Source of the DNA: Siphonodentalium dalli
Taxonomy: Eukaryota; Mollusca; Scaphopoda; Gadilida; Siphonodentaliidae
Length of the DNA stretch: 64,000 bases
Direction: 5' to 3'
NCBI GenBank assembly: GCA_032622095.1
Contig: CP136063.1
Location: 81,197,980 to 81,261,979 of the forward strand
Part shown: positions 2,405-63,652 of the stretch, piece by piece
How the letters are laid out: each line of letters opens with the position of its first letter
How positions within the stretch are numbered: position 1 is the stretch's first letter
Program-made: the position numbers and the translations under genes
Notes under the pieces: model-generated
Seen by the model: the letters and a program-made list of their open reading frames with translations, nothing else
The model's database searches: none
What the model was told of the DNA's origin: nothing

Positions 2405-4231
2405 TTTAGCTCAACTTTACTTTGTAAAGTTTGAGCTATTGCCATGGCTTGATATCCGTCATCTGTGTGTGCATATGGAAGTGTATGCATGTGTGCGTGT
2501 GTGAGGCATCAACAATACAGGCTACAGGTCGTACCTTTGGTCATATCATTATGAAATTTGTCATTGCTGTTGACATTGATATGTAGATGGGAATGAGTCA
2601 TTTTGGGGTCATTCAGAAAAAAAACGTGGCGGCCATCTTGGATTTCAAAATTCAACCCATTAGCATGGGCCGCAGGTCGTTCTGTTCGTCGGATCATCAT
2701 GAAATTTGTCATGGCTTTTGACATTGACATGTAGATGGGAACGAGTCATTTTGAGGTCATTCAGCCATAAAACATGTCCACTGACAGCCATTTTGGATTT
2801 TACTATTTGCATAACTAAATCTTTTGGCACGGGCTTCAAGTCGTACCTTTGGTTGGATCATTATGAAATTTGTCATGGCTGTTGACATTGACATGTAGAT
2901 GGGAAACAAGTCATTTTGGGGTCATTTGACCATAAAACATGGCTGCTGGCAGCCATCTTGGATTTTACTCTTTGCATGACTATATAAATCCTTTGGCACA
3001 TCTTACAGTCCACTTCCCCAATCCGATCATCACCTATCTTCATACTGATCTTGATATTAATCTACTAGATGGGAGCTATCAAATATTTTTGAATCTCATT
3101 TGAAAACATAGCCGCCAGCGGCCATCTTGGATTTACTTTATATATATATCTCTTCATGTTGATAATCTAGTATTACTTAGACATTTAAACTTTCTGCATT
3201 CCTAATCGCTCCATTGGCCTTAACAAATGAAATTATTCCCTGTCTAAGTTGAGCTACAGTGTCATTGACACGTTCATTTATATGTCCTCTATACCACCAA
3301 GTTATGATAAAACTAGATGAAGCCTTGTTAAAGTATGAAAGTGTTTCCGTTTTAACATTGCTTTTTGGTAATCCTAACTTACCATGTGAGCTCAAGATTT
3401 CATATGAACTTCAGGAAGATTTGAAGTATATAAATGAATAAAATAATAAAAATATATATATTAATATAATTAATATAACATAATTAAATATATTAATATT
3501 TAATAATAAAAAAAAAAAAATAAAAAAATATCATTTGGGTCACCCTACAGGCCGCATCCCTTATCCGATCACCACCAATATTTATATGGATCTTCAGAGT
3601 GAACTCTAGATCGAAGCTATCAATTTTTCCAAAATTCTTTAAAAACTATTATGGTCACCAGGACCACACCACACCCTGCAGCTCGCAATTATTGGAGAAA
3701 TGTTTTGAAAATTTTCAGGCATGTTTAGGATCTAGATGGGAGCTATCAAATTTTAGCGACTTTCGATGAATAACAAATTCACTGGCTCAGTGCAGCTGTG
3801 GCATCTTGTATTTTACACTTTGCATGACTAAATCCTTTGGCACACCCTTCATACCACATCCCTCGTCCAATCATCACCAAACTCGATATGCATCTTCAGG
3901 TCAGACAGCAGATCTCTAGATTGGAGACAACATTTTTTTCCGAAATTCGTAAATAAAAACATGGCTGACAGTGGCCATCTTGGATTTTGCTTGACTAAAT
4001 CCTTTGGCATGACTTACAGGCCACATCCGATCGTCACCAAATTTCATAATGATCTTCAGGGTGACCTCTAGAAGGAGCCAACACTATTTTCTGAATTTCG
4101 TTTAGATTGAAGATGACCAATTGTTTCGAAATTTGTTTAAAAACAGGGCCACTTGCATGCAGCCATCTTGGATTTCACATTTCAATCCAATGCGGCACAC
4201 TCGATCGGCAGCCCACATTTATTGGAGAAAT
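2405..4231. repeat. Degenerate tandem array H (about 150-170 bp units)
   Basis: Starts with a small hairpin (AGCTCAACTTTACTTTGTAAAGTTTGAGCT). Then come roughly eight diverged units of the pattern 'CAGGTCGTACC..GGATCATCA..AAATTTGTCAT... AGATGGGA... GCGGCCATCTTGGATTT... AAATCCTTTGGCAC'. Unit starts are visible near 2525, 2671, 2836, 3007, 3549, 3850 and 4018. The block GCCATCTTGGAT recurs in each unit. Units differ enough that the array is old. It is not coding in any continuous frame. Confidence 0.75.
3176..3534. other. Non-array interruption within H
   Basis: This stretch lacks the H unit motifs and separates the upper and lower parts of the array. It has short frames on both strands (minus 3177-3395, plus 3259-3441) and ends in an A/T-only tract near 3440-3530. 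Neither frame is recognised. I treat it as inserted or eroded DNA, not as a gene. Confidence 0.35.
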
Positions 4232-4796: not shown

Positions 4797-5207
4797 AGCT
4801 GTTATAGATTTTGTTTCCTCTTGGCATGGGGGTGAGGGGGTGGAGTCAGAAATAGAATTCTGACAAACAGTTCAATTGGACCACGGACCATTCTATCATG
4901 TTATTTTTATCACCACTAAGTCTCATGACTCTTGTATGACTAAGAATAAAATTGTATTTTTCATCGTATGTTTGAGCCATCGATGATTTAACAATGATCT
5001 GTTTATCACAAAGTTGGAACAAATGCTTACTGAATGAATATTTAATCACTGAGATCACGCGTCGGCCATTGTTGTTGGGACTTTTGTTTGTGTCTTGGTG
5101 CATGCTAACTCCTGTTGAATAGACTAAGATCCATGCATGGTCTCAAACTGTGACAAGACAGAAAAGCTCTAACTTGAACGCCTCGGCTTCCCTGGAGGGG
5201 TGTGGGT
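4797..5207. other. No recognised feature
   Basis: No repeat end, hairpin or coding region that I can support. A minus frame (4846-5103) has no recognisable features. Confidence 0.35.
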
Positions 5208-5317
5208 CATGATTCCCGCTGCTGTTTGCCAAATGCAAAAATTATTCACATTTGGCAAATAATATTTTCATTTGGCAAAAGTTGTGACATGTCACTTTTA
5301 TCAGCCCATTTAAACAA

Positions 5318-5701
5318 AACGGGACATATATTATGTTATTTGTCTGTCTGTCTATCTGGTCCGTTCATTCACTTTTGGTTTCTGGATGATAACTTTAGAT
5401 AGTCTCAACTTAATGTAATGAAATTTGGTATGTGGGTTTACTAGCAAAAAATTCAAGTCAAGTTAAAATTTCGGTTCCACCCACCAATTTTCATCTAGAG
5501 TTATGGCCCTTTTTGCTGGAATTTGCCCTCAATTTTCTTTTCCTGATGAAAAATTAGTAAATCTCAACTGAATAGAATGAAATTTGTTATGTGAGTTTAC
5601 TGGGCCAAATACAGGTCAAGCCCCGCCAATTTTCACCATAGTTATGGCCTTTCGTTGGAATTACCACAGGCATATTTTGCCACGCCTTAGTGATGCTCTT
5701 G
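5318..5701. repeat. L repeat (GTCTGTCTGTC / ATGAAATTTGGTATG type)
   Basis: Starts near ACATATATTATGTTATTTGTCTGTCTGTC. It continues with two imperfect internal copies of 'GAATGAAATTTGGTATGTGAGTTTACTAG' and ends in TGATGCTCTTGT. A second copy is at 18128-18452. The element class is not known from the sequence. Confidence 0.55.
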
Positions 5702-5705
5702 TTAA

Positions 5706-6097
5706 CCCTTTACCCAACAAACCGGCCAAAACCGGCCAAATAAAGCTTTAACAGCCTAAAATATCTTCGGTCTGTCTCAATAGAACCATACAAATATGGA
5801 TATCATTGGAACCGGCTCATTGACCACATTGTGATGGTTACAGTTATGCCCTGTGCCAATGCATTCTCTTATATATGCGAGTCAACCATAGGTCGCCTCG
5901 CATATATAAGAGAATGCATTGGCCTAAAAAAAATCTTTTTTTAACACTTTTTACCATTTTTTCTTACATTCTTTAACAATTTTATAATTTGTAATGTGTT
6001 AAGCCAATGCATTCTCTTATATATGCGAGGCGACCTATGGTCGACTCGCATATATAAGAGAATGCATTGGCACAGGGCCCTTCTGTTGGGTAAAGGG
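5706..6097 (+). mobile_element. PB-C piggyBac-like MITE, reference orientation
   Basis: Reference copy of PB-C. TTAA at 5702-5705 and 6098-6101. The terminal inverted repeat CCCTTTACCCAACA is followed by a GGCCAAAACCGGCC block and 'AAATATGGATATCATTGGAACC'. Then come two hairpins, each CCAATGCATTCTCTTATATA...GCATTGG, with opposite loops (CGACCATAGGTCG versus CGACCTATGGTCG). The hairpins are separated by a T-rich linker. TTAA plus CCCTTT ends fit the piggyBac superfamily. There is no transposase. Confidence 0.85.
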
Positions 6098-6228
6098 TTA
6101 ATTCCATCAGAGAGTTGAACAATATTGGCCAACTTATGCCATTCATTTCAAGAAACTCTCGCAATTTTTTTTTAGAGTGCTGTTTTTTAGGTTAGAAAAT
6201 GTTGACAGGTCTATCAGAATACAGTTAA

Positions 6229-6477
6229 CACTTTCATGATGGTTAGCTGTATTGGCGCAGCATTAAAAATCATATGCTATTACATTCTCTTATACATGTG
6301 AGTCTTCCATATGGAGCCTCACATATATAAATAGAATGCACATGCAAGCTTACAAGGTCAAGATAAATATTGTTAGGCCAATGCATCATCTTATATATGG
6401 GAGACTTGTATTTATATAAGAGAATGCATTGGCACAGGTTTTTCGCAAAATTTCAGAAAGCTCCAGCCATGGAAGGG
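6229..6477. mobile_element. PB-D MITE inside hAT-K
   Basis: Flanked by TTAA at 6225-6228 and 6478-6481. Two hairpins are present, both decayed. The related hAT-K copy at 35939-36436 retains the uninterrupted site (GCAGTTAATCGG, near 36164), so the insertion is confirmed by an empty site. Confidence 0.75.
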
Positions 6478-6684
6478 TTAATGGTATACTAGTATGTTAT
6501 TGTGGTGGTGTTTACATAGATAATCCTCTTTGTTTCGATATGCTCTTCTGATGAAATAACCCTTCTACAATTTTATTGCTCAGTGATTGGTTTAATGTTA
6601 TATGATAAACCACAGTAGAAAAGAATTTGGCAAAACTTATTTTCATTTGGAAAAAGTAAATGTCGGGCCAGCAAGGTCCCTTGT

Positions 6685-8624: not shown

Positions 8625-9017
8625 CCCTTTACCCAACAGAAGGGCCCTGTGCCAATGCATTCTCTTATATATGCGAGTCGACCATAGGTCGCCTCGCATA
8701 TATAAGAGAATGCATTGGCTTAACACATTAAAAATTATAAAATTGTTAAAGAATGTAAGAAAAAATGGTAAAAAGTGTTAAAAAAAAGATTGTTTTTAGG
8801 CCAATGCATTCTCTTATATATGCGAGGCGACCTATGGTCGACTCGCATATATAAGAGAATGCATTGGCACAGGGCATAACTGTAACTATCACAATGTGGT
8901 CAAGGAGCCGGTTCCAATGATATCCATATTTGTATGGTTCTATTGAGACAGACCGAAGATAATTTAGGCTGTTGAAGCTTTATTTGGTCGGTTTTGGCCG
9001 GTTTGTTGGGTAAAGGG
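8625..9017 (-). mobile_element. PB-C MITE
   Basis: Complete, reverse orientation. TTAA at 8621-8624 and 9018-9021, two intact hairpins. Confidence 0.85.
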
Positions 9018-17451: not shown

Positions 17452-17464
17452 TATGTCACTTTAA

Positions 17465-17800
17465 CCCTACCATGACTGAGCTTCCTGAAATTTTGCGAAA
17501 ACACTGTGCCAATGCATTCTCTTATATATGCGAGTCTCCCATAGGGAGCCTCACATCTATAAGATAATGCATTGGTTGTCCAACAATATTTACCTTGACC
17601 TTGTAAGCCAGTGCATTCATTCTCTTATATATGCGAGTCTCCCTATGGGCCCATAGGGTGCCTCGCATATATATAAGAGAATGCATTGGCCTAACAATGT
17701 GTACATTGATCTTGTAAAGCCAGTGCATTCTCTTATATATGCGAGTGCACTGGCACAGGATCTTTAATGCTGCAATAGGGCATCTCCCGTCGTGAAGGGG
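17465..17800. mobile_element. PB-D MITE with three hairpins
   Basis: Most complete PB-D copy. TTAA at 17461-17464 and 17801-17804. Ends CCCTACCATGACTGAGC and CGTCGTGAAGGGG. It has hairpins CCAATGCATTCTC.., CCAGTGCATTC.. and a third, incomplete one. The linkers are TATTTACCTTGACCTTGTAAG-like. Confidence 0.82.
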
Positions 17801-17837
17801 TTAATGTGAGCTTGCCCATGAGAATAATAGTACAGGG

Positions 17838-56623: not shown

Positions 56624-57919
56624 TTAACCCTTCCATGACTGGAGCTTCCCAAAATTTTGCGAAAACCCTGTGCCAATGCATTCTCTTATATATGCGAGTC
56701 TCCCATAGGGAGCATCACATATATACGAGAGTACATTGGCCTAACAATATTTACATTAACCTTATATGCCAGTAGTGCAGGTAGTTAGTGACAAAAAATG
56801 CTCGGATCGATACAAGTCGGATAAAAGCGCCATTTTTTAGTATCTTGTAGGACAGCATCTCTAGTCTAGGAATTTTCTCAAGAACCAACTTTTCGACCGA
56901 CGTAGAGCCGAAAATTCAACATGGCGTCCAAGATGGCCGCCGGTTTGACGGTGGCACACCTAATATATTTGCTTCTTGATTTGATATGGTAAACATAACG
57001 AATTCCTCAACACTATCTAATATTAGTGTTCATAGAATAACAACCGCGACTTTTAGTTGAAAAATGGCCACAATTATTCAAGATGGATGCCAAAATGGCG
57101 GCCAAAACATTAGAAATTGTTTTTTTTTCCTTATTTAAAAAAAAAATACTTTACAATTTTCGAGATAATATAAGAGAGATATCAACTATGTGTTCATCAT
57201 TCGATGGAATAACTTCTGTGGAAGAGTTATGCACATTAAAGGTGAAGTAGTATTGTTCGTTCTGGTATAAATGTGAGGTAGAATATGTGCTATATAAAAT
57301 AAATGAAATTATTCTCAGACTGTGTTTCATTCTGTAAATGCTTAATAACCAACCGTGAATGACCCTGATGTCATCAATTCTATTTGCGAAACTACTATAT
57401 GGTTGGATCATTTGAATAAAAATTTGTATGTCGAGATGTTTACAAATAAAAAATCAATTTAGTAGTGGATTTACCACGAAATTAGGAAACACTAAATGAC
57501 AGACCCCCATACCCATCAAACTCAATTTAGTTCTCAAAAACAAGAACATATGGAAGGTATTCTGCAACATATCTTCATCATCAGGCCTCGTATTCAAATT
57601 ACCAATACTTAAATTCAGTGTTTTATGTTCAATTATACACAAAATGATTGAAGCGTATACCCGAAAGTATAGTTGAGTTCGGAGTAATAAATAATATTAT
57701 TTCCTTGTATCATATAGTGTCCTCAATTATTTCAGCAACAGAACATGAAACACAATCATGCGAATTGCGCAGATTCAATAATATATATGCATATGTATAC
57801 TTTTGAGTGTTATATTGTTGCTGAGATATACTCCAGGGGGCATGTGGTGGGAAGATGGGATCAGTAAATTTGAAAATACACTTTGCTTTAATAAACTGAA
57901 TTGAACAATTCACTACTCA

Positions 57920-59890
57920 GTGAGTAGTACTCACAACCACATCTGCACAACTCCGTACATGGAAGTTTGCTTTTTGAACATTTACACCTGGAACAAACCG
58001 ATTTCAAACCAATTTAATCAATTCGGTGCACACTCTAGCCACTTCTGGGGTTGTCAACCATACAAGAACAAAAGAATCGTCACACTGGGGGGAAAACTGT
58101 TTCACCAGAATCGATTCTATCACCCTTCCGGTTTCGTCTCTATCAATTAAGTTCCGACTCTTTCGCGGTTTGTTAAAAAATATTCAAAGTTTTGATAGGC
58201 TGTTTATACACTGAATATCAATACAGAAAGTATTCTCTAATAACAACCGACAGATTAGGTCTATGTGCGTGCTTATTGTTGATAGCAATGCAATAGCTGC
58301 TTGTGGTGCACATTTAGAGACGTGCATTTGTGTGTATTTCCCACGAGAATTAAGCAACAGTTTGATGCTCAGCCTTTCAGCCTCATCACATTTAAATTGG
58401 GCTGGAACTTGTTAGGTTTTATGATCGAACATTATAGGTTATTATAATGTCCTGGTGTTCGATCACATAATGAGACATGTTCCAGCCAACGAAAAGTATC
58501 AAGGTCGATAAACTTATCATCAAATTGCTGCTTAATTTACATAGGAAATGCACAAAAACGCATTATGCATCAAAGTGTGCACAAAAATAGCTGATTTCGC
58601 ATTATTATCATCATCAATAAGTACGAGCAAAGACCTAATCTACGGATATTTGTTTAGAAAATAGTTCTGTTTTTATATTTAGTGTATAAATGGCGGTCAA
58701 AACTTTGAAAACAGTTGTGTTTAATCGCGAAAGAGTCGGGCCTTAGTTCGATAGAGACAAAACCGAAAAGGCGATAGAATCGATTCTTGTGAAACAGTTT
58801 CCCTCCAGTGAGTCTAGTGCTGGAAACTTTGCATCTATTATGGGGCTTACAGTCCATATACCAGCCTGATGTATACTAGTAGCACAATTTCTTTGGTGGT
58901 AACTGTTCATGTGCACAGCCTTTGCTGAACATTTCATTTCTATCTTCATTAACTGAGGTCAGGTTCGCAGATTTGTCATAAACAATCACGACGAAATGCT
59001 AAATACTCTCAAATAGTGGTGATGGAACATCAAGTACCACAAAAGGATTCCTCGTAATTGACATCAAGCATTCTGTTAGCTCTGGGTAAGCTTTTCAAGC
59101 ATCCCAAAATGTGCGCTTACCATTACCAAAGAAAAAGAAAGTTGAGTCGCATCCTGATATCACATGGAAATGATGAAATATTGGAAGCACAGTTGAATTT
59201 TCTGAGCCCAATTGAATTGTACATATCAACTATGTTGCGGATGGGACCTAGACTTGTCGAAAGACACAGTTCCAAATATTTGCATTGGAGTAGTAGCTTA
59301 GCATGCAGATGTCACACTAGAATCACGGTAATATCCTTGTAAAAATCCTTGAACAATAATCGATAAATAATGAGTTTGTAACATATGAGATATATGTCCA
59401 ACTAATCTACTGTCAGCATCTTCATATGTGCATCCAAAGAGAATAGGTTCCAAATTAGGACCGCATTATCATCCTCCGTTGTGAAGATGGTTTTCCTTGG
59501 TAGGGTTTCCAATTTAAAGAGACATTCATTGACCAATGCAAACAATACTTGCTTGTTGGTGGTGTTTCTTAGAAAGTCATTCCAATTCGGTGGAATTTTT
59601 GTGATAAGCCCCCACCTTCCTTACATCGAATGCCACAACCACGTTTCTCTCATATTCCTGTTTTGATACTAACCTATATTTACCTGTCCAAAAACCAAGT
59701 CAATTCTTCTACTATCTGGGAGCTGCATCATAACATATGGAATAAACGTTGTGCTGATATACATTGAGAAGGTATGCCCGACTTCAGGTCTCAGTAAGTT
59801 ATCAGAGCACCCCCATCGAACACCTTACACTCGACCTTTGGATTTGGCTCTGCAGTGTCTATGTAGTTTCAATCGGATGGGACCTTCATG
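57920..59890 (-). pseudogene. Decayed transposon gene, left-arm copy
   Basis: Read on the minus strand with several frameshifts and stops. Near 59690-59760: FIPYV...RRIDLVFGQ. Near 59470-59600: TKIPPNWNDFLRNTTNK followed by LFALVNE. At 59403-59426: YEDADSRL, an acidic EADTR-type motif. At 59140-59169: FHVISGCDST, then an F.GNGK...W segment and YPELTECLM. At 58946-58999: HFVVIVYDKSANLTSVNE. Near 58020-58070: VWLTTPEVARVCTELIK. At 57926-58000: the Cys-rich run SVCSRCKC..LPCTELCRCGC. This block order matches a protein type I recall as repeat-encoded in invertebrates (EADTR, TVDTD, GCDT, VNE and CXC blocks); its exact name is uncertain. A long palindrome (58087-58806) interrupts it. Not functional. 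Confidence 0.72.
58087..58806. repeat. Secondary palindrome in the left arm only
   Basis: AAACTGTTTCACCAGAATCGATTC... and its reverse complement GAATCGATTCTTGTGAAACAGTTT are the outer ends. Arms of roughly 300 bp meet at about 58450 (GATCGAACATTATAGG/...GTGTTCGATC). The right arm of the big element lacks it, so it is either a nested foldback element or a local inverted duplication. Confidence 0.65.
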
Positions 59891-59984
59891 CAGCTTAGGA
59901 TGTCACATTTATTACCGCCCCTGATTTCGCCCACTTTCGATATAGATGGGGGAACCACTGGTTTTCGTGTGAGAAGAACATATA

Positions 59985-60625
59985 TTTCATATGCTACAAA
60001 CCGATAATTCTTCGATTATTGTTCACACTGTTGACACATATATTATCGTGGTCATGTTAGGACATCTGTATGCTATGCTTTTTCAATGCAAACATTTGAA
60101 ACTATTTGTCTTTCGAGAAGTCTAAACCCCATGTTACATACAACATAGTTGATACGTGCAATTCAATGGGCTAAAACAAATTCAAATGTGCTTCCAATAT
60201 TCCACCCGATATCAGGATGCGACTCAACTCCCCTTTTCCATGGTAAGGGTAAGCGCAATTTTGGGATGCTTGGAAAGATTAGCTCACAGAATGCTTGATG
60301 CCAATACGAGGAATCCGTGTGTGGTTCTTGATGTTTCATCGCCACTGTTTGAGAGTATTTAGCATTTCGTTGTGATTGTTTATGACAAAGCTGTGACGCT
60401 GTCACGCTGACCTTAGTTAATGAATGTAAAGTTTCCAGCACCTGACGTCTTTGGGTGGAAATTGATTGGCGGTTCTTTTGTTACTGTTTGGATGACAACC
60501 CAGAAGCAGCTAGAGTGTGCACAGAGTTGATTAAATGTGTTTGCAAATCGGTTTGTTCCAGGTGCAAATGTTCAAGAAGCAAACTTCCATGTACGAAGTT
60601 GTGCAGATGTGGTTGTGAGAAGTGA
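59985..60625 (+). pseudogene. Decayed transposon gene, right-arm copy
   Basis: On the plus strand near 60021-60056 the frame reads VHTVDTYIIVV, then MLGHLYAM, matching the TVDTDVVVL-type acidic motif with D changed to Y. At 60200-60260: FHPISGCDSTPLFHGKGKRN. Further on come NPCVVLDVSSPLFESI and, after a stop, HFVVIVYDK (about 60364-60390). A deletion relative to the left arm removes the region after VNE. The final segment 60503-60625 is an open 40-codon stretch, EAARVCTELIKCVCKSVC then SRCKCSRSKLPCTKLCRCGC, ending at TGA. The Cys spacing resembles a CXC (tesmin/TSO1-like) motif. Not functional as a whole. Confidence 0.72.
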
Positions 60626-61613
60626 ATTGTTAAATACAGTTTATTAAAAACAAAGTGTATTTTCAAATTTCAAATTATTGGTAATTTGAATACGAGGCCC
60701 GATGATGAAGATGTGTTGCAGAATACCATACATATGTTCCTATTTTGAGAACCGAATTGAGTTTGACGATTATCGGTTTTGTCATTTGGTGTTTCCTAAT
60801 TTCGTGGTAAATCCACTACTAAATTGATTTTTTATTTGTTAAGATCTCGATATTCAAATTTGTATTCAATTAATCCAACCATGTAGTAGTGTCACAAATA
60901 GAATTGAAGACATCAGAACCATTCATGGTTCGTTTCTAAGCATTTACAGAATGAACCCCTGTCTTAGAATAATTTTGCTCATTTTACATAGCACATATTC
61001 TACCTCACATTTGTACCAGAACAAACTATACTACTTCGCATTTAGTGTGCATGACTCTTTCACAGAGGTTATTCCATCGAATAATCAACACATTGTTGAT
61101 ATCTTCTCTTATATTATCTCGAAAATTGTAAAGTATTTAAACAAAAATATGGACAAAACCAAACATTTCCATGTTTTGGCCGCCATTTTGGCATCCATCT
61201 TGAATAATTGTGGCCATTATTCAACTAAAAGTGTGGGCTGTTATTCGGTAACCACCATTCTTAGATAATAGGGTGGAATTCGTTATGTTTAACATATCTA
61301 ATTGAGAAGCAAAACTATTAGGTGTACCATCGTCAAACCGGCGGCCATCTTGGACGCCATCTTGAATGTTCGGCTCTACGTCGGTCAAAAAGTTGGTTCT
61401 TGAGAAAATTCCTAGGCTAGAGATGCTGTCCTACAAGATATGAAAAAATGGCGCTTTTATCCGACATGTATTGATCAAAACGCTAACTACCTACACTACA
61501 GTGCCTTCTCTTATATATGCGAGGCTCCCTCTGGGAGACTCATATATAAAAGCGTGCACTGGCACATGCAGGATATTTAATGCTGCACCAGCACAGCTCC
61601 CATCATGAAAGGG

Positions 61614-61872
61614 TAAATGGGGTCGGTAGGGAAACCCCGAACCAGAAATAGTTTTTTCTTTGGCCTTATGCAATGACCATAACAGCAAAGTGTCAGACTC
61701 AATACACAACATCATTTGTCTCAATTAGCAGGTGGGACAGGGTGGGAGGTAAATCTGCCAGTGCAGACTCTGTTTTAGGGCACCCATCCCCAAGTTATTT
61801 GGAAATAAGCCAAGGTACTAGTAACTCAATTTTATAGCCTGGTTTATGAACAAACGCCCCCTCCTGTAACTA
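61614..61872. other. Possible P remnant, otherwise unassigned
   Basis: AGAAATAGTTTTTTCTTTGGCC near 61646-61667 resembles the P right end. Nothing else recognised. Confidence 0.35.
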
Positions 61873-62246
61873 CAGTAATGCCCTAAATAATTGACTCCTT
61901 AACCACAGCAGAATTATGGGTAATTTTTCAGGATTTAGTTGGAAATATGGCTTGTTGCCATTCATCGGAAAATATGAAGCATATAAGAGCCAAATAAAAT
62001 ATTTGATGACAGACTCTTGTGGTTACATTTTTATGGGAAGAAATACCTCAATTTATTTTAACTATTTGAGTAAAACTTATCTTTTCAAATATCATGTGAA
62101 ATTTATAAACAATTCTGCTACAGTAATGCCCTAATTAATCGAGAGCTTTCCGATGAATGGCAACAAGCCATATTTCCGACTAAATCCTGAAAAGTTACCC
62201 ATAATTCTGCTGTGGTTAAAGGAGTCGATTAATTAGGGCATTACTG
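61873..62246. mobile_element. Two damaged Pal-A copies in tandem
   Basis: 61873 to about 61972 is a left arm (TA-flanked) ending at CATCGGAAAA. 62121-62246 is a second copy with its left arm cut after CCCTAATTAATCGAG and a complete right arm. About 150 bp of unassigned AT-rich DNA separates them. Confidence 0.75.
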
Positions 62247-63652
62247 TATTTGTCAACTGTTGTGATGGTGATGCTCATTATAATTTTTATTCCCTCCCGC
62301 ATCGACACCTACGTTTTTCAACAAAATGTTTGTAAACCAAGCTATTTTATAGTTGTGGCCAAACCATGATATACTGGTAGTAGGAATTACAGTTTGGACA
62401 GTTTGTTAATTATAAAGCAATATACTAGTATACATGTATGAATTGAATCAAGTCTACAGTATCACAATAGACAGGAATGAGTCTTGATATAGGGTATGGT
62501 ACATTAATGATCTCATTTTTAACAACAGGGATGTGGATAGAATGTCTTTATTGGGCATGCCCACCATGAATTCCAACAGCACACCCACCCAATTGAAAGC
62601 CAAAATTTCAAACTCGGGGACTCTTCAATCTGAAGTTTTTCAGGGAGTGAAATGCACTCCACAGTGCATATCTGAAAATCATAATCTAATACGATTTTTA
62701 AATATTATGAGATAGATGCGATCATCAAGTGAAGATTTATCGATTTCTCTGAGGTAATTTTGATATGGCTGAAGTAAATACGTTATACTAGTACTTCATG
62801 TCAAGTTATAAAATTTATCTGATTCTACCTTTTATGCAATTTTTTCACTTCAGCGCATTATTAAATTTAGATTAAAATCTTCTTGCAGTCCCATGACTAA
62901 TGCTTTTATAAAAACGTATAAATCTCTTTCGTGAAAATGCACTCTTAAAGCAGTCTCTGCAGAATCAGAGTTACATGTATTACCCTTTCATTTCATAATC
63001 CGCAGTTATCTAGCAAGACGGGACAAGCGTTATTTTGTGACAAATTAATTATTAAATAGAGGATCTCTAATGAGTTGCATTTCTATACAAGCTTTAGCAA
63101 GGCTCGATTCAAGTTTAGATGAGGTTAATATATTTTCTACAGAATTGCAAAATCACATTTTAGTAAGGATAAACAATCTCAAAATGGCTAGGGTTAAGAA
63201 AATTTAATATTGATTTCCTGATCACAACCAAAGAGGAAGTAAAGACACGTTCAAGAAAAAATATAGTTCCATTTTAAATGTGTCTTCATGTTGACAAAAT
63301 AATTGTTAGAATTGTTCAACCACCCGTATCACCCATGTGTATCTCACAGTCAACACTAAATATCCCAACACAAATTGAATATCATAATTATATTCTAATT
63401 AACCTAATACTAAATCAATATCATTGTGCTAAGCTTTTACCTCACTTGCGCGTGGCGATAATACACAGGTGTCTTACTAAAAAAATATTGACATGTAAAA
63501 CACATCTATATCGCTAAATATATACTACTAGTATATACTATATTTACATTAAGCAGCATTAGTTTTAGATGGAATTTTCAAAGACAATTTACTTCTATTA
63601 AAATACATGTCTATTTGTGGCTGAAGATGAATCCCAGGTGAAAATCATTTAG
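62247..63652. other. No recognised feature
   Basis: 1.4 kb of AT-rich DNA. Frames at 62533-62715 and 63278-63517 are not recognised. No repeat family of this window is visible. Confidence 0.4.

Follow-up and report, generated by a model that had tools for sequence, protein, structure and literature searches.

The stretch analysed here (the window, 64,000 nucleotides in length) belongs to contig CP136063.1 of the scaphopod Siphonodentalium dalli (assembly GCA_032622095.1, positions 81,197,980 to 81,261,979), and positions 56773–61498 of it constitute one complete mobile element of 4726 bp, a non-autonomous palindrome. Taken as a whole, the results are very probably best explained by a non-autonomous palindrome of the AcademX type that originated in one inverted join between 3' ends resembling that of P1—an intact relative in the same genome—and that is moved in trans. 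The origin of foldback transposons and of hairpin miniature inverted-repeat transposable elements (MITEs) is usually guessed, the parent or the joint having been lost; here, a single genome exhibits the joint as well as a parent-type element bearing the end that was duplicated, and it reveals both the condition in which the arms started and how the element spread afterwards.

Structure, copies, and recent spread of the element

A first-pass annotation of the letters had placed a foldback transposon at these same coordinates, which proved exact to the base, both outer ends being flanked by CAG (Table 1). The ends were alike in 20 fetched copies, of which 17, in addition to the window copy, bore a perfect 3-bp target-site duplication; and element-free paralogues of the window insertion site were located at window positions 6225–6481 and 17460–17806. 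The 5' ends of the element start with TAGTG, CACTA standing at the 3' ends, for which reason an assignment to the CACTA (EnSpm) elements, whose 5' ends start with CACTA, was discarded. CACTA is a core sequence of the terminal repeats of those elements (PMC1636069).

Comparison of the element with itself resolved three inverted blocks, namely 56805–57615 against 60666–61476 (87% identity), 57866–58082 against 60467–60670 (84%), and 58945–59397 against 59978–60424 (78%), which result established the homology of the arms. The annotation had described those arms as reverse complements of about 2–2.6 kb; the inversion was upheld and the length proved only approximate, about 1.5 kb being paired between a left side of 3205 bp and a right side of 1521 bp that meet at 59977/59978. 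The right side is without certain stretches that are kept in both P1 and the left side, for example some 250 bp of the 3' untranslated region (UTR). Both sides contain the same decayed gene with its 3' end pointing outward and with a GCDST block, a YDK block, and a Cys-rich tail; thus the earlier description of a recognisable gene end in each arm was accurate, GCDST and Cys-rich blocks being present in both remnants.

The left side also harbours a nested palindromic insertion of 728 bp, 72% self-complementary and with a probable 4-bp duplication of AGTC. This insertion is likewise present in diverged copies (e.g., L039, L040, L042–L047, and L053), and it therefore predates their common ancestor. 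In the sister copies L027 and L028 the nested palindrome is adjoined by a foldback element of about 770 bp (L027 at about 2127–2897, and the matching place in L028), with TAGTGTTCGG... ends and a duplicated CGTCA; and a TA microsatellite (L027 at about 5152–5345) varies in length among the copies, those of the window group having a deletion at that site, in the right side.

The element is no single-locus oddity, since at least 47 copies are present in the genome (2.23 Gb). Both sides recurred at all 31 places scored, which were the best 31 of 748 genome-search candidates, while the central piece of the gene, used as the query of a protein search in which 150 of 608 candidates were scored, contributed 16 fetched loci as further places. 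Five of these (L041, L045, L048, L049, and L052) are older copies with one side breaking off and are not full palindromes within the fetched stretch. The two-sided structure is therefore not a product of chance, inasmuch as both sides and, as shown below, the same junction recur.

The window copy forms a tight group with six others, each differing from the group majority by 6–10 substitutions, with five shared variant columns; and a second group comprises three copies at four substitutions each from their majority. Two copies about 120 kb apart differed at 1 of 5618 positions, their duplications being different and their flanks without match. Such near-identical copies at separate sites point to very recent movement, despite there being no intact gene in the element.

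A shared junction and an intact relative

Among the best 150 of the 608 protein-search candidates, seven relatives had no stops in the matched stretch, and one of these, P1 (locus L059, G000:C1:256364400-256371299), was fetched as 6.9 kb beginning 621 bases before its open reading frame (ORF); another copy with a long frame is at C1:226314885. That frame runs stop-free for 1507 codons, with the Cys-rich tail at its end, and is followed by a 1.1-kb 3' UTR ending in GCTAACTACCTACACTA, which is also the terminus of the window element. Both sides of the palindrome align to the 3' terminus of P1 at 79–85% identity, the left side from P1 position 3788 and the right side from 4374, so that both ends correspond to the 3' end of the parent, as the annotation had claimed; the search for a parent that it had suggested led to P1, an intact relative of the parent type.

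At the joint the left side, which corresponds to P1 from 3788 read as its reverse complement, passes in inverted orientation into P1 from 4374 at a 4-bp microhomology, ACAT; in a random inverted join a match of at least 4 bp would be expected in 1.6–1.8% of cases, as computed. The same internal junction, for which the annotation had proposed that other copies be screened, was present at every one of the 38 distinct places whose sequence was checked. That check covered 43 loci plus the window; six of the 43 (L037, L038, L050, L054, L056, and L057) repeat counted places, and L029–L035, which repeat the window group, were left out. Trees built from 52 coding segments and from 32 UTR segments separated the left arms, without exception, from the right arms, each kind forming a group of its own, and the branching order of the copies was similar, by eye, within the two groups. 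These trees, which are unrooted and include P1 as the sole parent, comprised 51 of 74 arm segments (coding) and 31 of 57 (UTR), near-identical copies and short pieces having been omitted. One shared joint together with the arm-wise grouping establishes a single founding event with no wholesale exchange between the arms since, and these sequence comparisons show that the palindrome formed once, diversified, and then recently spread.

To the question of one parent or two we applied the codon positions of those sites on which the three copy groups of an arm agreed, an 80% majority being required and no fewer than two groups having to be readable in each arm. The fixed left–right differences at positions 1, 2, and 3 were 7, 7, and 6 in the main segment and 2, 4, and 1 in the tail segment, whereas the differences of P1 from both arms were 8, 4, and 18 and 0, 1, and 9, respectively. 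Third positions thus accounted for 7 of 27 differences between the arms versus 27 of 40 specific to P1 (one-sided Fisher p 0.0009; p 0.036 for the main segment alone). Of the 27 fixed arm differences, 14 had P1 siding with the left arm and 13 with the right, so that it always matched one of the two. The control consisted of differences between deep copy groups of the same arm, which arose in dead sequence; these numbered 23, 20, and 30 and 3, 9, and 7 at the three positions, with 37 of 92 in third positions, a weak lean that in the main segment is not significant (p 0.34). The absence of a third-position skew between the arms, along with the constant match of P1 to one of them, shows that at the time of joining the arms were one and the same sequence, or almost so; they have since decayed as non-coding DNA, while the parent line has stayed under selection. 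With the P1 terminus and the shared junction, the near-identity at joining supports the annotation's proposal that such an element is born by duplication of one transposon end.

The founding step and its alternatives

Both sides, then, go back to the 3' part of an element resembling P1 and became joined once, in inverted orientation, at the P1-equivalent positions 3788 and 4374 through the 4-bp microhomology. We propose that P1-like elements provide, in trans, a transposase that recognises the two identical 3' termini and moves the product. The founding step, which is the least certain part, may have been a repair event in a copy that had broken: a resected 3' strand with ACAT at its end would fold back on itself, ACAT pairing with ATGT 586 nt back, and primed synthesis would copy the strand's own terminus; the product so predicted is the structure observed. 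Alternatively, that repair could have switched to a sister or a second copy as the template. What is implied is that an element of this superfamily may need no more than two 3' ends in order to move. A palindrome without a live gene can, moreover, endure until its arms are over 10% apart and even then undergo a burst.

Several points weigh against this account. P1 is 15–21% diverged from the arms, so that the bases at the founder's joint are deduced from one relative, and neither the 5' terminus of P1 nor a closer autonomous copy was seen in the sequence fetched. The trees, being unrooted and with one parent, leave open in which order the left arms, the right arms, and P1 branched; and the perfect 3-bp duplication was absent in 3 of the 20 fetched copies, L009 having a 5-bp direct repeat and L018 and L024 no duplication at all. 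None of 21 copies had the inverted flanks that a snap-back predicts at the founder locus (the left flank of L012 being only 55 bp), although this is what one would expect of a sample made up solely of transposed daughters. Finally, in the foldback inversions described at broken chromosomes in yeast, a single-strand hairpin likewise gives an inverted duplication, but with loops of 4–44 nt in tel1 mutants and a median of 35.5 nt in strains proficient in MRE11 and SAE2 (PMC7467729); the loop required here, in a product that became a transposon, would be far larger at 586 nt, which size favours a template switch or a fusion over a simple snap-back. A template switch to the sister, or a fusion of two near-identical copies, thus appears about as likely as the snap-back.

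Such a fusion, which concerns the founding step only, is a possibility of some weight, though the less probable one: two near-identical full copies would have stood head to head in inverted orientation, a deletion sealed by microhomology end joining would have removed their inner parts, and the two outer 3' ends would from then on have behaved as those of one element. This course would also yield a single junction, a 4-bp microhomology, and arms identical at birth, and would account for the 586-bp asymmetry with no large loop; but it requires two nearby insertions plus a deletion, and no head-to-head intermediate occurred among the 38 places checked, although all of these are transposed daughters. 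A bolder extension of the repair scheme, which we regard as rather unlikely, is that AcademX elements would make their own palindromic parasites: with an EXO1/FEN1-like nuclease in the transposase, an internal break would be resected 5' to 3', the strand so exposed would snap back at a very short match and copy one end, and the product would be instantly mobile, since the transposase would accept two identical ends. If true, foldback elements and hairpin MITEs would in general have a route of origin that their parents inflict on themselves.

Quite improbable is a parent whose very long terminal inverted repeats had grown into the gene, of which the window element would be an ordinary internal-deletion derivative. 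Galileo in Drosophila willistoni, some copies of which are described as having more than 500 bp of ORF drawn into the repeats (PMC4168063), offers a precedent; but the 6.9 kb fetched for P1 contain no second copy of its 3' end (the 5' terminus lying outside that stretch), and the junction is inside the ORF on both sides. A composite element with one arm from each of two parent subfamilies is more doubtful still. That origin would accommodate the mere 78–87% identity of the window arms and is compatible with the unrooted trees taken alone; but differences between two parents that were both alive ought to lie chiefly in third positions, contrary to the low third-position share between the arms as against that of P1 and to the agreement of P1 with one arm at every fixed difference. 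A chance pair of old inverted insertions that is not a mobile unit, the only reading that a single window by itself could suggest, is refuted by the number of places, the one junction, the 3-bp duplications, and the near-identical recent copies.

Affinities, known systems, and surroundings

Structure models of P1 suggest a DDE transposase core resembling those of the P element, hAT, and RAG, together with a nuclease region of the EXO1/FEN1/XPG type. These predicted domains and the 3-bp duplications fit the AcademX lineage of the Academ superfamily, in which the target duplications are of 3–4 bp (PMC10045372); the placement is by these features, and the window element differs in being a non-autonomous palindrome of one end. 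AcademH, with a helicase and duplications of 9–10 bp (PMC10045372), was rejected on the criterion of duplication length. Sequence-only domain searches of P1 returned no Pfam family and no PDB chain; DUF6589 matched four of six homologues scanned (P0010, P0036, P0101, and P0054), above the cut-off in two. A protein search with P1 gave 366 matches and one with the broken composite gene none, while tblastn of one piece against phages found nothing and was uninformative.

The nearest published parallel that we noticed is Galileo, in which the long inverted arms likewise reach into the end of the transposase ORF (PMC4168063, PMC3573991), with the formation of two-repeat elements (PMC3573991). Galileo nevertheless has a P-superfamily transposase and, in Drosophila, target duplications of 7–8 bp (PMC4168063), for which the P superfamily was set aside; and its repeats are described as extended from existing ones, in contrast to the one inverted join proposed here. 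In the literature searched on the origins of foldback elements, MITEs, and inverted duplications we recognised no account of a one-end route, which is no proof of its absence.

Three observations concern P1 and its relatives. C2H2 zinc-finger-like repeats were noticed by eye, no family search having been made, right beside the P1 3' end (L059 6300-6900). Twenty relatives (G000:C7:96497736, C5:64452821, and others) at about 55–59% protein identity have the same stop counts of two TGA, two TAG, and one TAA, and are probably another non-autonomous family. At G000:C3:121152046-121164508, four copies of a relative follow one another on one strand at a spacing of 4025–4026 bp and so make up a tandem array, of which a piece of transposon is part.

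Table 1. Features of the palindromic element and its flanks (window positions).
Feature	Positions	Strand	Basis and remarks
Whole non-autonomous palindromic element, 4726 bp	56773..61498		Termini and flanks compared over 21 copies; 31 places scored genome-wide
Target-site duplication, left copy, CAG	56770..56772		Flank comparison
Left terminus TAGTGCAGGTAGTTAG	56773..56788	+	Comparison of ends; TAGTGTAGGTAGTTAG in 20 fetched copies
Left side: gene 3' part, P1 3788 to 3' terminus, reading towards left end; holds nested insertion	56773..59977	-	79–80% identical to P1
Decayed Cys-rich (CXC-like) tail, left copy	57930..58082	-	Translated comparison
Nested palindromic insertion, CACTGG...CCAGTG, left side only	58083..58810		Self- and P1 comparison; separate from the element
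Decayed gene remnant, left copy, with stops and frameshifts	58811..59977	-	Translated comparison
Unpaired centre, 580 bp, gene sequence of the left copy only	59398..59977	-	Self- and P1 comparison
Inverted junction 59977|59978, with ACAT (59978–59981) as 4-bp microhomology	59974..59981		Common to both joined sides in P1
Right side: gene 3' part, P1 4374 to 3' terminus, reading towards right end	59978..61498	+	79–85% identical to P1
Decayed gene remnant, right copy: GCDST block and Cys-rich tail	59978..60622	+	Translated comparison
Subterminal repeated motif, two copies (61178–61205; 61340–61367), 82%	61178..61367	+	Repeat-family comparison in the window
Right terminus CTAACTACCTACACTA	61483..61498	+	Identical to the 3' terminus of P1 (L059, end at 6281)
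Target-site duplication, right copy, CAG	61499..61501		Flank comparison

The two copies of the subterminal motif might be transposase binding sites. Hairpin MITEs have no working gene and an inverted structure and are moved in trans; the element resembles them in the first two respects, and presumably in the third, but differs in its 4.7 kb and its gene remnants. With MITEs being usually under 600 bp (PMC3573991), the element, at 4726 bp, is not one by size.

The annotation had further regarded the element as a large version of the hairpin MITEs that fill the window, which idea was not supported: within the window, only the flanks of the element match them, the arms matching each other alone, and with no detectable shared sequence between those repeats and the arms we rejected their membership in the family. 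The hairpin repeat in question, of about 80 bp and beginning with CAATGCATTCTCTTATATATGCGAG..., has many copies in the window (e.g., 56666–56747, 61499–61566, 5849–5930, and 8645–8725), many of them paired in inverted orientation at a distance of about 230 bp, and the element is inserted into one of them. To the right of the element is also a palindrome of about 380 bp (61868–62251), with 73-bp arms of 97% identity.
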